Under the pieces are notes generated by a model. It made no database searches. It saw only the letters and a list, made by a program, of their open reading frames with translations, and had not been told where the DNA came from. Shown here in pieces: positions 42,450 through 49,526 of a DNA stretch of 64,000 nt. This DNA comes from Planctomycetota bacterium (GTDB lineage: Bacteria; Planctomycetota; Phycisphaerae; UBA1845; UTPLA1): the NCBI GenBank assembly GCA_016235815.1, contig JACRIM010000060.1, forward strand, positions 1 through 64,000. Reading direction: 5' to 3'. Within the stretch, counting starts at the first letter, position 1; each line of letters starts with the position of its first letter. Position numbers and translations under genes: made by a program.

Positions 42450-43406
42450 ATGAATTCGCCGATTAACCTTACCCACGAACGAATCCTGATTACCGGCGCC
42501 GCCGGATTCCTTGGTCGCCATGTCGTTGCGGAGCTTCGAACGGCAGGAATACGCGAGAACCACATCCTTGCACCCCGTCAGTCGGAATACGACCTGACGG
42601 ACGCCACGCAGGTGGTTCGGATGTTTGACGAATTGAAACCGACGATGGTGCTGCATTTGGCGGCACAGGTCGGAGGCATCGGCGCCAACCGTGACAACCC
42701 CGGCCGATTCTTCTACGCCAACCTGGCGATGGGGATGAACCTCATCGAAAACGCTCGGCGTATGGGGCTGAAAAAGTTCGTGCAAATCGGAACGGTCTGC
42801 TCCTATCCGAAATTCGCCCCGGTCCCCTTCCGCGAGGCGGATTTGTGGAACGGCTATCCGGAGGAGACAAACGCCCCTTATGGCGTCGCCAAGAAGGCGC
42901 TATTGGTCATGTTGCAGGGCTACCGGGCGCAGTACGGCCTCAACGGCATCTTCCTGATGCCGGTTAATTTGTACGGCCCCTACGACAACTTTGACCTTCA
43001 GGCCGGCCACGTGATCCCCGCGCTGATTCGAAAGTTCGTTGAGGCTCGACGAGCGGGAGCGTCCAACGTGACGGTCTGGGGAACCGGCAACGTGAGCCGT
43101 GAGTTCTTGTATGTGGAAGATTGTGCCCGGGCCATCGTTCTGGCGACGCAGCGATACGACGGCGCAGACCCCGTCAACGTTGGCGCGGGCTTCGAGATCA
43201 CCATCGCCGACTTGGTGGACAAGATTCGCACGCTGACGGGCTATCAGGGCAAGGTGGTTTGGGACTCATCGAAGCCCGACGGCCAACCGAGGCGGATGCT
43301 CGACACCTCGCGAGCCGAAGATCGCTTCGGATTCAAAGCGCAGATCAGCTTCGATGATGGACTTCGACGGACCATCGCATGGTTCGAATCAACGGCCAAA
43401 AAATAA
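42450..43406 (+). CDS. fcl: GDP-L-fucose synthase
   Basis: 318 aa, the family's usual length. NAD(P)-binding '[15 protein letters not shown]'; '[19 protein letters not shown]' and '[19 protein letters not shown]' are characteristic of GDP-fucose synthase (WcaG/Fcl). The catalytic Tyr-x3-Lys is in '[11 protein letters not shown]', and '[11 protein letters not shown]' follows. The enzyme epimerises and reduces GDP-4-keto-6-deoxymannose to GDP-L-fucose for surface glycans. The partner GDP-mannose dehydratase gene is not in the window. It starts 124 nt after the dehydrogenase gene. Confidence 0.92.
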
Positions 43407-43420
43407 AACGAAACCGGAGC

Positions 43421-44080
43421 TTAGCGCGACACCACTTTGGCGACCGGCACGCTCGGCGTGCCGACCGCACGCTTCGGCACGGGCCGACGCACAATCTTGT
43501 GGGCGTGCTGCGTTTCGGAGTAGTCGACGGTCTCGACGTGGTTGAGACCGGCTTCACGCACCGCCGCAATGACATTTGCCTTGGTGACCGTGCGGATGCT
43601 CTTGGGCAGAACGACCCAGATCGCGCCGTTGGGATTGAGGCTCTCACTGAGGTCCTCGATCTTTTGCAATTCGCTGGGGCGCTCGACGCCGAGCATGACC
43701 ATGTCACAGGTCGCCATTGGATTCGTCACCATGCGCGTGCGCTTCGACTCCAATGAATGAATCAACTCGCTGTCATCCAGGTTCAACACGCGAACGTGCT
43801 GCCCTTCCTTGACGCCGAGCTTGTCGGCAAGCGTGCGCGGCAGGGAAATGTAATCCATCCATGACTCGGCCTTGCGAACTTCGCCGAGGCCGATCGACAC
43901 GGGGTTTCCGTGGAACGAGAAAAGAATGGTGTCAGCCTCGCGCCGGGCGTTGGTGGCCTCGGTCAGGCGGAAGCGGTACTTGGTCGACCCTGAAAAGTCG
44001 ATGTAATCCGCCTCCATGCGGACTTTGCCGGCATAGGTCTCCTTGCCGACTTTGAGTTTGCAGGCTGATTCCATAGCCAT
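43421..44080 (-). CDS. Protein of unknown function with DUF3052-like C-terminal half
   Basis: 219 aa, soluble. The first half ('KVGKETYAGKVRMEADYIDF' and 'GQHVRVLNLDDSELIHSL') is beta-rich and unassigned. The second half ('LNPNGAIWVVLPKSIRTVT', 'AVREAGLNHVETVDYSET' and 'AHKIVRR') has the pattern of DUF3052, a small domain of unknown role. AAGGAAAC precedes the ATG. It is convergent with the GDP-fucose synthase gene, with 14 nt between. A candidate promoter is at 44264-44292. Confidence 0.65.
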   Translation of the reverse strand: MAMESACKLKVGKETYAGKVRMEADYIDFSGSTKYRFRLTEATNARREADTILFSFHGNPVSIGLGEVRKAESWMDYISLPRTLADKLGVKEGQHVRVLNLDDSELIHSLESKRTRMVTNPMATCDMVMLGVERPSELQKIEDLSESLNPNGAIWVVLPKSIRTVTKANVIAAVREAGLNHVETVDYSETQHAHKIVRRPVPKRAVGTPSVPVAKVVSR

Positions 44081-44392
44081 GGTAGTTTCCTTCTTGGTTC
44101 GCTCTGCCGCTTCGTGTGGCCGCCCGAACAGCAACGCCACGAGAACGGTCGCGAGGCCTTTTGCCTCCGGGCCTTACGGATGCGCGCTGGCAAGGTTCAC
44201 GCCAAGGGCCGGAAATAATCCGCCTGAGACGTCGTGAAGCCTCGCCCCCAAACGCAAGGCCGGATTATATACTCAAAACGAAAAAGCGGAAAGTGGAATA
44301 AAGAACCCGTGGCGATTTGAAGAAATGGGGGCAATTCGGCGCGCCTGTGTACGTGGCGATCGCCCATTGCTCGTGCGGGTACGTGTGAATTG
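44081..44392. other. Intergenic region upstream of the DUF3052-like gene
   Basis: It holds a candidate minus-strand promoter and an A-rich degenerate ~8-nt repeat at 44275-44301 (AAAACGAA, AAAGCGGA, AAGTGGAA). No gene is supported. Confidence 0.5.
44264..44292 (-). promoter_or_regulatory. Candidate sigma70-type promoter
   Basis: Read on the minus strand: TTTCCG, 17 nt, TATAAT, giving a ~175-nt leader for the gene starting at 44080. The -10 box is a perfect match, the -35 box weak. Confidence 0.4.
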
Positions 44393-46360
<1,968 letters not shown>

Positions 46361-46482
46361 GACAGACTCCAGTGGAGGGTGAGGGTTCGCCTGCACTCTG
46401 CGCGTCGGCGAATTATAAGGATCGGCCAGTCTGGTGCCAGACACGGGTGGTGAGTACGCGGCGAACACCGTACCATAGCCGC

Positions 46483-48045
46483 ATGAATCCGCCGCAAACC
46501 CCCGCCGACTATTTCAAATTCTGCCCCGGCGAGGAGCACATTAAGATATCTAATGCGATCTGTCGCGGACGGCGAAAGACGAGTTTCCCCAAATGTGTTA
46601 GTTGCCAGTTCAACGACGACCTGAAACCCGGCGGCGCGGTCGCGTCCATGCCGTCGCTCCGCAATACGGCACACGTGGAGGCTGTCTTTCAGGCTGAGCA
46701 AATCTGTGCAACAACGCCGACGCCGCTATCGACCGATGTCGCCTGGCGCATCGGCCACGCCGCGGGGCAATACCTGCATGGAAAACTTCGCGGCTATGAA
46801 CGTGCGCACCCCGGTTCGAAATCGGTGGTTGTCGCCCGTGATCTTCGCTCCAGCGGCAGCGCCCTCGTCCTCTCGCTCACGGATGGAATCCGCTCCGTCG
46901 GGATGGATGTCATCGACCTCGGCGTCGTCGACACGCCGCAACTTTTCTACGCTGTAAATCACTTCAATGCGTGCGGCGGAATCATCGCGACGGGAGCCAC
47001 CGCACCAACGGATTACAACGGATTCAAACTCTGTGCCGCCAAGGCTTCGCCCATTTCGGATCAAACGGGGTTGGCCGGCATTCGCGACATTGCCCTTCGC
47101 GTTCCACGGCACCAGACCGGCGTGCAGGCTCGCATTCGAGAAGACAGCGTCGCCACGGAGTACCAGGCATTTGTCCGAAGCGCGTTGGTCGGCGGTGCGG
47201 TGAAACGGCCGCTCAAGGTTGTTTTCGACGCGGCCAATGGCGTCGCGGCCCGCTGGGCGCCCGTGCTCTTTGAAGGCCTCGGCCCGATCTCGCTTGAACC
47301 GGTGAATTTTGAGATCATGGAGCCGTTCGTTCACGATCCTGACCCGACCATTCCGGCAAACACGGCGCAATTACGAAAGCGCGTGAAAGAAACCGGCGCC
47401 GACCTCGGCGTTGCGTTCTCCGGCGATGCATCGCAATGCGCCTTCGTCGATGAAAAAGGCGCCATCGTACCGACCGATGTTGTCGGGGCACTCCTGGCGC
47501 GGGCCTATCTCGAGCGTCATCGCGGCGCGCCCATCGTGCTGGATGTGCGATCGAGCATCATCCTCATTGACGAGATTGAACGCGCCGGAGGCATCGCCCT
47601 GCGGGAACGCGTCGGCTACCACCACATGCGAAAGCGAATGGGCGAGGCGAATGCGGTATTCGGTGTTGATTGGAGCGGCCGGTACTATTTCCGTGAACAC
47701 TACGGGTGCGAATCGGCCTTCTACGCAACGATGCAGCTAATCAATCTTCTCAGCACGGGCGGCCGCTCACTCGCGGAACTCGTGCAGCCCCTGGCCCGTT
47801 TCCGATCCTCCGGCGAAGTGGCGATGCGCTGTGCAAGCCCTGAGATTGCGATTGAGCGCTTCGTGCAGTCGCACGGCGACGCTCAGATCGACCGGCTGGA
47901 CGGTGCGACGATTCGCTACCCCGACTGGCGGGCCCATCTTCGCACCCGGGATGGCGAAGGCGCACTTCGCGTCGTGGTGGAGGCGAGGACGAAGAAACTG
48001 ATGGAGCAAAAGTTGAAGGACTTCGACGCGGGCTCAGAAACGTAG
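46483..48045 (+). CDS. Phosphohexomutase-fold protein lacking catalytic residues, with Cys4 N-terminus
   Basis: 520 aa. Alpha-D-phosphohexomutase fold: '[14 protein letters not shown]', '[14 protein letters not shown]', '[11 protein letters not shown]' and the C-terminal phosphate-binding-like loop. The catalytic loop, normally TASHNPxxYNGxK, reads '[13 protein letters not shown]' (170-182), so the phosphoserine is Ala172. The metal loop DGDxDR reads 'SGDASQ' (313-318). The sugar loop GEMSGH reads 'GVDWSGR' (394-400). The ~60-residue N-terminal extension contains Cys14, Cys27, Cys38 and Cys41 ('FPKCVSC'), a zinc-site-like spacing. Mutase activity is therefore unlikely. A binding or regulatory role is inferred. 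The frame is intact and codon use normal, so this is not a decaying pseudogene. Convergent with the kinase gene. Confidence 0.8.
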
Positions 48046-48056
48046 TGCCATTCCGT

Positions 48057-48884
48057 TCACGCCGTTTTGGCGATCTTGTCGAAGGTCACTTCGAGCCGGT
48101 CCTTCACGATTTGCATGGAGTCGGGACGATTCATCCGATCCGGCTGGCAGCAGTCTTCAATCAACTTGAGCAGTGTCGGATCGATCTGTCGAGGCTGGTC
48201 ATTGGTCGGGTTGCGCCAGCGATCGAGGTTGATGTGGCCGGTAGACCCGGCGGAGGAGTTCAACTCCGTCTCAACCGAGACGCCGAGGAAGATCTTGTGC
48301 ATGGTCGCACCGAGGCCGAAGACATCGGTGCGGGCGTCGAGGATTTGTCGCTCGACCTGCTCCTTGGCGATGAAGTCCTTGGTGCCCTGTATGCGCTCCT
48401 TCTTGGTGAACATGGCGCAGGCCTGGCCGAAGTCGATGATGGTTGGGCGGCCGCTTTTTGCACAGAGGATGTTGTGCGGCTTCAGGTCGGCATGGACAAA
48501 CCCGCGCTTGTGCAGGTCGAGAAGGCCGTCAGAGCAGTGCCAGAAGACCTTGATGAGCAACGGGATGTCTCCGGACTCAGCAAACTTGTCGAGCTGAATA
48601 CCGTCGACATAGCCGAGGATGTTGTAGGCCTCCACGGCGCGAAGCTTGCGTTTGATGATGCCGTACTCCCATGATTTTCGGAGGACGGGATGGTTGTTAT
48701 GGACGCCGACGTCGAATTCGTTTTTGAGCTGGCGGACTTGCGACTCCCAATTGGGGGCGGAGGCGGCGACGTACTTCTTGCAGTACATCTTGCCGTCTTT
48801 GGCGTCGCGCATGAGGGAGACTTTGGTGCCGGCGCCGACGCCCAATTCCCGCACGAACATCAGATTTTCGAGTTTCTTGGACAT
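48057..48884 (-). CDS. Soluble serine/threonine protein kinase
   Basis: 275 aa, a bare kinase domain without membrane helix or sensor. The glycine loop is 'ELGVGAGTKVSL', the ATP lysine is in 'KMYCKKYV', the catalytic loop 'FVHADLKPHNIL' (HxDxxxxN), 'IIDFGQACAMF' (DFG), and 'ARTDVFGLGATMHKIFLG' marks the F-helix. His-Ala-Asp replaces His-Arg-Asp, so it is not an RD kinase. The start MSKKLENL is the first ATG before the domain; the open frame extends to a GTG at 48986 without a ribosome site. Convergent with the phosphohexomutase-like gene with 11 nt between. Target unknown. Confidence 0.88.
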   Translation of the reverse strand: MSKKLENLMFVRELGVGAGTKVSLMRDAKDGKMYCKKYVAASAPNWESQVRQLKNEFDVGVHNNHPVLRKSWEYGIIKRKLRAVEAYNILGYVDGIQLDKFAESGDIPLLIKVFWHCSDGLLDLHKRGFVHADLKPHNILCAKSGRPTIIDFGQACAMFTKKERIQGTKDFIAKEQVERQILDARTDVFGLGATMHKIFLGVSVETELNSSAGSTGHINLDRWRNPTNDQPRQIDPTLLKLIEDCCQPDRMNRPDSMQIVKDRLEVTFDKIAKTA

Positions 48885-49526
48885 TCGCAGTCCGTAGCCA
48901 ATCCGCTGGAGTAACGCATGGCCGATGATGCCAAGGCGGGGGCCGCGCGACCGATTAACAGTCGCATTGGTCGCCCCAAAAACCACGATGCCTGCATTTC
49001 CGGGTCCTGCCCTGGGATAAGGCCGGGCCGTTTCGGAGCAGGATCGTCGTCATATCGGCAAGATCGATTCCTCGTCGGAGACCCCGATCCAACGGGGTTA
49101 TGCGTCGTGAAAAAATATCAAGCACCGCACTATCAATGGAGTGGGTGGTCTGTCGCTGGGCCGAACTGCGAGGGAATGGATCGAAAATGACGGTTTTATG
49201 CGGACGGCCTCTCGCGGCGGACCTCTCCCACGTTCACCATACTATAAAGTCCGGCCAGATGTCTTTCCAGTGGGTTCGGAAAGAATTCCTCGGGAACGCC
49301 GTAATCCATATCTAACCGCAGCATGAAAAGCCGCACGGCGGGCAACATCAGTCAAAAATGTCAAATCGCGCAGCTTCACCCAACTTAGATCTGAAACGGT
49401 GGGCAGGATTACCCGATATGGGGCCGCAAACACGGCTGTTGGGGCCACCCTGGCGTGGCACAGCGAATGCCCTGTGAAAAGTGCCTCGCAGGCTACCGGA
49501 GCAAGAACCGGCAGGAGGGTGCCTCT
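48885..49526. other. Intergenic region with no supported gene
   Basis: About 640 nt upstream of the kinase gene. Several short open frames exist on both strands (for example 48918-49190 plus and 49242-49448 minus), but none has a ribosome site and recognisable composition together. No convincing ncRNA or terminator is visible. Confidence 0.5.

Follow-up and report, generated by a model that had tools for sequence, protein, structure and literature searches.

Why would a bacterium keep a full-length phosphohexomutase homologue in which the catalytic groups have been replaced? The question is raised by a gene in the stretch of DNA analysed here (64,000 nucleotides, referred to as the window), which the original prediction described as an intact, retained frame, perhaps turned to sugar-phosphate sensing. 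The gene, its features and its neighbours are listed in Table 1. As a start codon, the ATG at 46483 fits better than the alternative GTG upstream at 46372, because conservation begins only at residues 9-14.

Table 1. Coordinates in the window of the mutase homologue, its sequence features and the neighbouring genes.
Feature	Position	Strand	Residues	Remarks
Pseudo-phosphohexomutase CDS	46483..48045	+	520 aa	ORF call, Pfam, structure model (pLDDT 90)
Four-cysteine module	46516..46620	+	12-46	CPGEE-x-KISNA-x-C-x-GRR..KC.xCQFNDD; invariant Cys
Degenerate phosphoserine loop	46990..47007	+	170-175	TGATAP for TASHNP
Degenerate metal loop	47419..47436	+	313-318	SGDASQ for DGDADR (X. citri DGDFDR)
Remodelled sugar loop	47662..47682	+	394-400	GVDWSGR for GGELSGH (X. 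citri GGEMSAH)
Degenerate phosphate-binding loop	47941..47970	+	487-496	Replaces R.SNTEPLLR
NAD-dependent epimerase	42450..43406			
DUF3052-like protein	43421..44140			Downstream of acs
acs, acetyl-CoA synthetase	44393..46468	-		
Protein kinase	48057..48986	-		PF00069

By fold and homology, the window protein belongs to the alpha-D-phosphohexomutase superfamily. PGM_PMM domains I, II and III all match above the Pfam cut-offs and are followed by the C-terminal domain, and the NCBIfam PMM/PGM models give strong E-values, which nevertheless remain below the equivalog cut-offs. In an AlphaFold2 model computed with 47 sequences, the first 40 residues have a pLDDT of about 75-89, and residues 58-520 adopt the four-domain fold of Pseudomonas aeruginosa PMM/PGM (1k35; Z about 50) and of Xanthomonas citri PGM (5bmn), the closest fold with a TM score of 0.92, at about 30% sequence identity.

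We assigned the loops by alignment to the X. citri PGM sequence and took the roles of the four active-site loops (phosphoserine, metal, sugar and phosphate) from PMC6443537. Ala172 stands at the position of Ser97, the phosphoryl-transfer serine of the X. citri enzyme. In the sugar loop, Glu is replaced by Asp and His by Arg, whereas Ser is retained, and the phosphate-binding SNTEP reads RDGEG. The loss of the catalytic serine, the replacement of DGDxDR and the change in the sugar loop had all been predicted and are borne out by the alignment with X. citri PGM; that the phosphate-binding loop is lost as well had been overlooked. Thus, the combination that marks an active PMM/PGM (the Ser of TASHNP, DGDxDR, the sugar Glu/Ser/His loop and SNTEP) is not found in the window protein. 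Unlike 1k35 and 5bmn, it has no phosphoserine, metal loop, sugar Glu or phosphate loop, and it carries an extra N-terminus with four cysteines. The protein looks as though it lacks mutase chemistry, in which case its automatic annotation as a phosphomannomutase would be wrong.

The change is not confined to a single copy. Among 61 genomes from the order to which the window belongs, 58 have a match to the window protein, and in most of these the match is a close orthologue. The loops are intact (TASHNP, DGDADR, GELSGH, SNTEP) in families f2, f3, f4, f6, f7, f8 and part of f5. Family f1, a group of uncultured Phycisphaerae-type bacteria to which the window belongs, includes 14 genomes that encode a protein without the serine (the dead copies), two (G009 and G011) with intact loops, and one (G015), 97% complete, without the gene; not every member of the family therefore needs the homologue. 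All 40 aligned rows with intact loops have the serine, which is missing from each of the 14 dead rows of f1, a difference far beyond chance; its place is taken by Gly in 13 of them and by Ala in the window copy. In a tree of 63 rows, from which the N-terminus and the four catalytic loops were left out, the 14 dead rows form one clade with a support of 100/100, and the two active proteins are sister to it within a family clade supported at 100/99. The original prediction had named a lone decaying copy with normal close homologues as the finding that would overturn it, which is not what this clade represents. At least four further losses, some of them partial, were found elsewhere in the order (G020, G051/G048, G040/L121 and G028), and a parsimony count on the tree gives five changes. 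Assembly error is not the cause, because dead copies sit in single-contig assemblies (G002, G013 and G014). A search of viral contigs gave no relative. One locus recorded as belonging to an Alphaproteobacteria bacterium (L110) has a four-Cys mutase that matches those of Phycisphaerae and is probably mislabelled.

The loops were not lost all at once. The core of the phosphate loop is gone in all 14 dead rows of the family, and four replacements on the stem of the clade have been kept: S172G (13/14), E396D (12/14), H400R (12/14) and D410E (14/14). DGDADR, in contrast, is still intact in two members (G001 and G012); therefore, the loss of the metal site came later and more than once, and SGDASQ is peculiar to the window copy. 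A search for a new conserved motif of the dead clade was unsuccessful, as most residues that distinguish the clade also occur in at least one of the two active sisters. By this comparison, the shared residues mark the family and not the loss, whereas the four stem replacements are specific.

Could the gene be a slowly decaying relic, which lost its constraint when another phosphoglucomutase took over and is drifting towards loss? The dead-clade branches are longer than those of the active enzymes, the identity of the body domains among dead rows is about 50% (43-57%, compared with 63-66% among active rows), the phosphate and metal loops vary freely, and G015 has lost the gene. However, full-length frames are found in 14 genomes of many genera, the single-contig assemblies among them, and the module is better conserved among dead rows (76%) than among active ones (70%). 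The dN/dS ratio is low in both close pairs of dead copies (0.05 for G014/G006 and 0.16 for G002/G013) and is 0.02-0.04 over their first 50 codons; these pairs are other members of the clade, as even the closest relatives of the window copy do not exceed 52% identity. Because of the low dN/dS, the conservation of the module and the retention of the four stem replacements, the pattern of selection read from these alignments is not one of free decay. Hence, the view that the retained protein is not decaying stands, and a relic is improbable. Judged by sequence, the window protein is a real, conserved pseudoenzyme.

The proposed sugar-phosphate sensing calls for a remodelled cleft that can still hold a sugar phosphate or a different anion, with the four-Cys module passing the signal on. 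Several basic residues of the dead clade are in line with such a role: Arg122 is retained in 14/14 rows, Arg487 in 12/14 and Arg496 in 9/14, and His400 has become Arg in 12/14. Moreover, herring PGM5 is inactive yet binds glucose-1-phosphate (PMC7761743). Nevertheless, none of the 14 rows has kept the Glu that contacts the sugar or the Asn/Thr of the phosphate anchor, in contrast to PGM5 with its intact substrate site, and no new loop sequence is conserved. Canonical ligand binding is unlikely because these anchor and sugar residues are gone from all 14, and the prediction of sensing fares poorly, although as a whole we consider a sensor somewhat less improbable than a relic. An enzyme with a changed chemistry that does not need the phosphoserine would also explain the kept fold and the conservation of the pocket residues that were replaced on the stem. 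The metal ligands are, however, lost in most members, the window copy included, the catalytic Arg/Lys/His positions vary, and no new conserved catalytic set is seen in the dead clade, which leaves this explanation scarcely credible.

The module was the other striking element of the original prediction. Cys14, Cys27, Cys38 and Cys41 are present as stated and invariant in 28 aligned orthologues. Throughout the order, the four-Cys N-terminus is found wherever the orthologue has its N-terminus, in active and dead forms alike. Hence, the cysteine pattern could be discarded as a mark of the dead form, and the proposed check whether all homologues sharing it lack the serine gives a negative answer. 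The module has no Pfam match and no convincing sequence relative in the PDB, and a model of it in isolation (pLDDT 54) was too poor for a fold search; it is probably metal-binding.

A phylum-wide search located the module fused to the N-terminus of the mutase in families f55 and f83 and in Scalindua; in these distant lineages, Scalindua included, the enzymes are active. The four-Cys PMM/PGM proteins of the order's other families and of Scalindua are homologous to the window protein and share its module and architecture, but unlike it they have intact TASHNP, DGDADR, GELSGH and SNTEP. In three distant planctomycete contigs (G089, G133 and G113), the module is encoded by a small ORF of its own that immediately precedes the mutase gene, with a gap of about 30 bases in G089, and in two further cases (G081 and G127) the separate module and the mutase gene are on different contigs. 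As module and mutase are fused in some lineages and adjacent in others, they appear to be partners, and the distribution suggests that this functional partnership predates the loss of catalysis. At one locus (L212:7482-9126), about 30 bases lie between a small ORF that encodes the four cysteines on its own and the active mutase gene downstream of it, a candidate two-gene operon.

The genomes also differ in their other mutases. That of the window encodes GlmM (TIGR03990, above the cut-off) and a 589-aa phosphoglucomutase with intact TASHNP, DPDADR and SGTEP, which we take to be of the PgcA/PGM2 kind. Counting only mutases beyond GlmM, of the 589-aa kind or, in G003, G028 and G048, of an 800-900-aa kind, 18 of 19 genomes that carry a dead copy have a further phosphoglucomutase, compared with 6 of the 32 whose copy is intact, or 7-8 of 32 if a classical PGM in G009 and an unclassified PGM in G021 are included. 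Fisher's test on 18/19 versus 6/32 gives p = 1e-7 for rows that are related to each other; tree-aware pairs of second mutase and loss give 2-4 concordant and 0 discordant cases, which is not significant alone, and the link rests on about 5 independent changes. The exception is G004 (75% complete), in which a second copy, itself doubtful, is the only further phosphoglucomutase found. This copy (L047, on the 3.1-kb contig G004:C181) is an active four-Cys mutase that groups with family f7 (100/99) and is likely a contaminant or a transfer. The 800-900-aa phosphoglucomutase-like protein (L181, L182, L187 and L190), with the motifs SASHND.RYNG.K and DPD[AS]DRCG, occurs in genomes without the 589-aa kind, some of which (G031, G049 and G055) have no four-Cys mutase either.

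The most likely explanation, to which we assign a probability of about 0.65, is that the window protein is a dead orthologue of the Phycisphaerae PMM/PGM, descended from an ancestor with two functions; the catalysis would have passed to another enzyme, and the module-based, non-catalytic role would have been kept. In this ancestor, mutase catalysis would have coexisted with a non-catalytic function based on the module together with the mutase fold. With another phosphoglucomutase present, catalysis would have become dispensable. Ser172, Glu396 and His400 of the sugar loop, Asp410 and the phosphate loop would then have changed on the stem of the dead clade, and the metal loop would have eroded later, in separate lineages. 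The protein would be kept for its second role, in which the module may dock a partner, a protein or a nucleic acid, and the fold may serve as a scaffold; the step from a dead enzyme to a scaffold or regulator is one that we infer.

Inactive and regulatory members of the superfamily are known. PGM5 (aciculin) is an inactive vertebrate phosphoglucomutase with an intact substrate-binding site (PMC7761743). The planctomycete protein resembles it as a superfamily member that, by its sequence, would have no mutase activity and would be kept for a non-catalytic role. It differs in that PGM5 belongs to the PGM1 branch and has kept the substrate residues, whereas the planctomycete protein has independently lost its loops, the predicted substrate loops among them, and carries the four-Cys module. 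A limited search of the literature revealed no bacterial clade of inactive phosphohexomutases, vertebrate PGM5 being the known case. A precedent for the mutase fold as a regulator is provided by GlmM, which inhibits the c-di-AMP cyclase CdaA (PMC8573169, 7olh). There, a bacterial phosphohexomutase fold acts on a partner protein, as the window protein might by analogy, although GlmM is also an active enzyme. A diadenylate cyclase was considered as the partner here, but with 30 of 31 relatives encoding a member of that family, its presence is uninformative.

The planctomycete set amounts to a natural experiment: the tag is common to active and dead orthologues, about five losses arose independently, and in some lineages the tag is a separate gene. 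With it, whether a housekeeping mutase also has a non-catalytic role becomes a directly testable question. More tentatively, module and mutase fold together may be a regulatory unit of planctomycetes that has not been described before and that already had both functions in the active ancestor, so that the repeated loss of catalysis isolates a moonlighting function; we consider this less likely than not. If true, that function could be, for example, the control of polysaccharide or central carbon metabolism via a metal- or redox-sensing tag, which no known system has.

As predicted, the gene lies between those of an acetyl-CoA synthetase, transcribed divergently, and a Ser/Thr kinase. The suggested pairing with the kinase is not conserved, a kinase neighbour being present at 0 of 120 related loci. 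The kinase scores against PADLOC kinase models (MAD6 and PD-T4-6), matches that are generic for kinases. Acetyl-CoA synthetase itself could be the target of the window protein as a local regulator or partner. In agreement with this, the mutase gene has acs and the DUF3052-like gene in its vicinity in 9 of 14 dead-clade genomes, the window included, and in neither active sister. Yet five dead-clade genomes lack this arrangement. Within 1.5 kb, acs is kept at 7 of 14 family loci, and a control from the same family, the malate dehydrogenase gene with an adjacent transporter gene, stays together over the same distance at 6 of 16. Hardly above background, this linkage was rejected as a sign of function, and a role tied to acs is very improbable. 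The epimerase near the mutase gene, presumably GDP-fucose synthase-like, is not conserved there in relatives. The DUF3052-like gene is kept together with acs in eight other genomes of the family.
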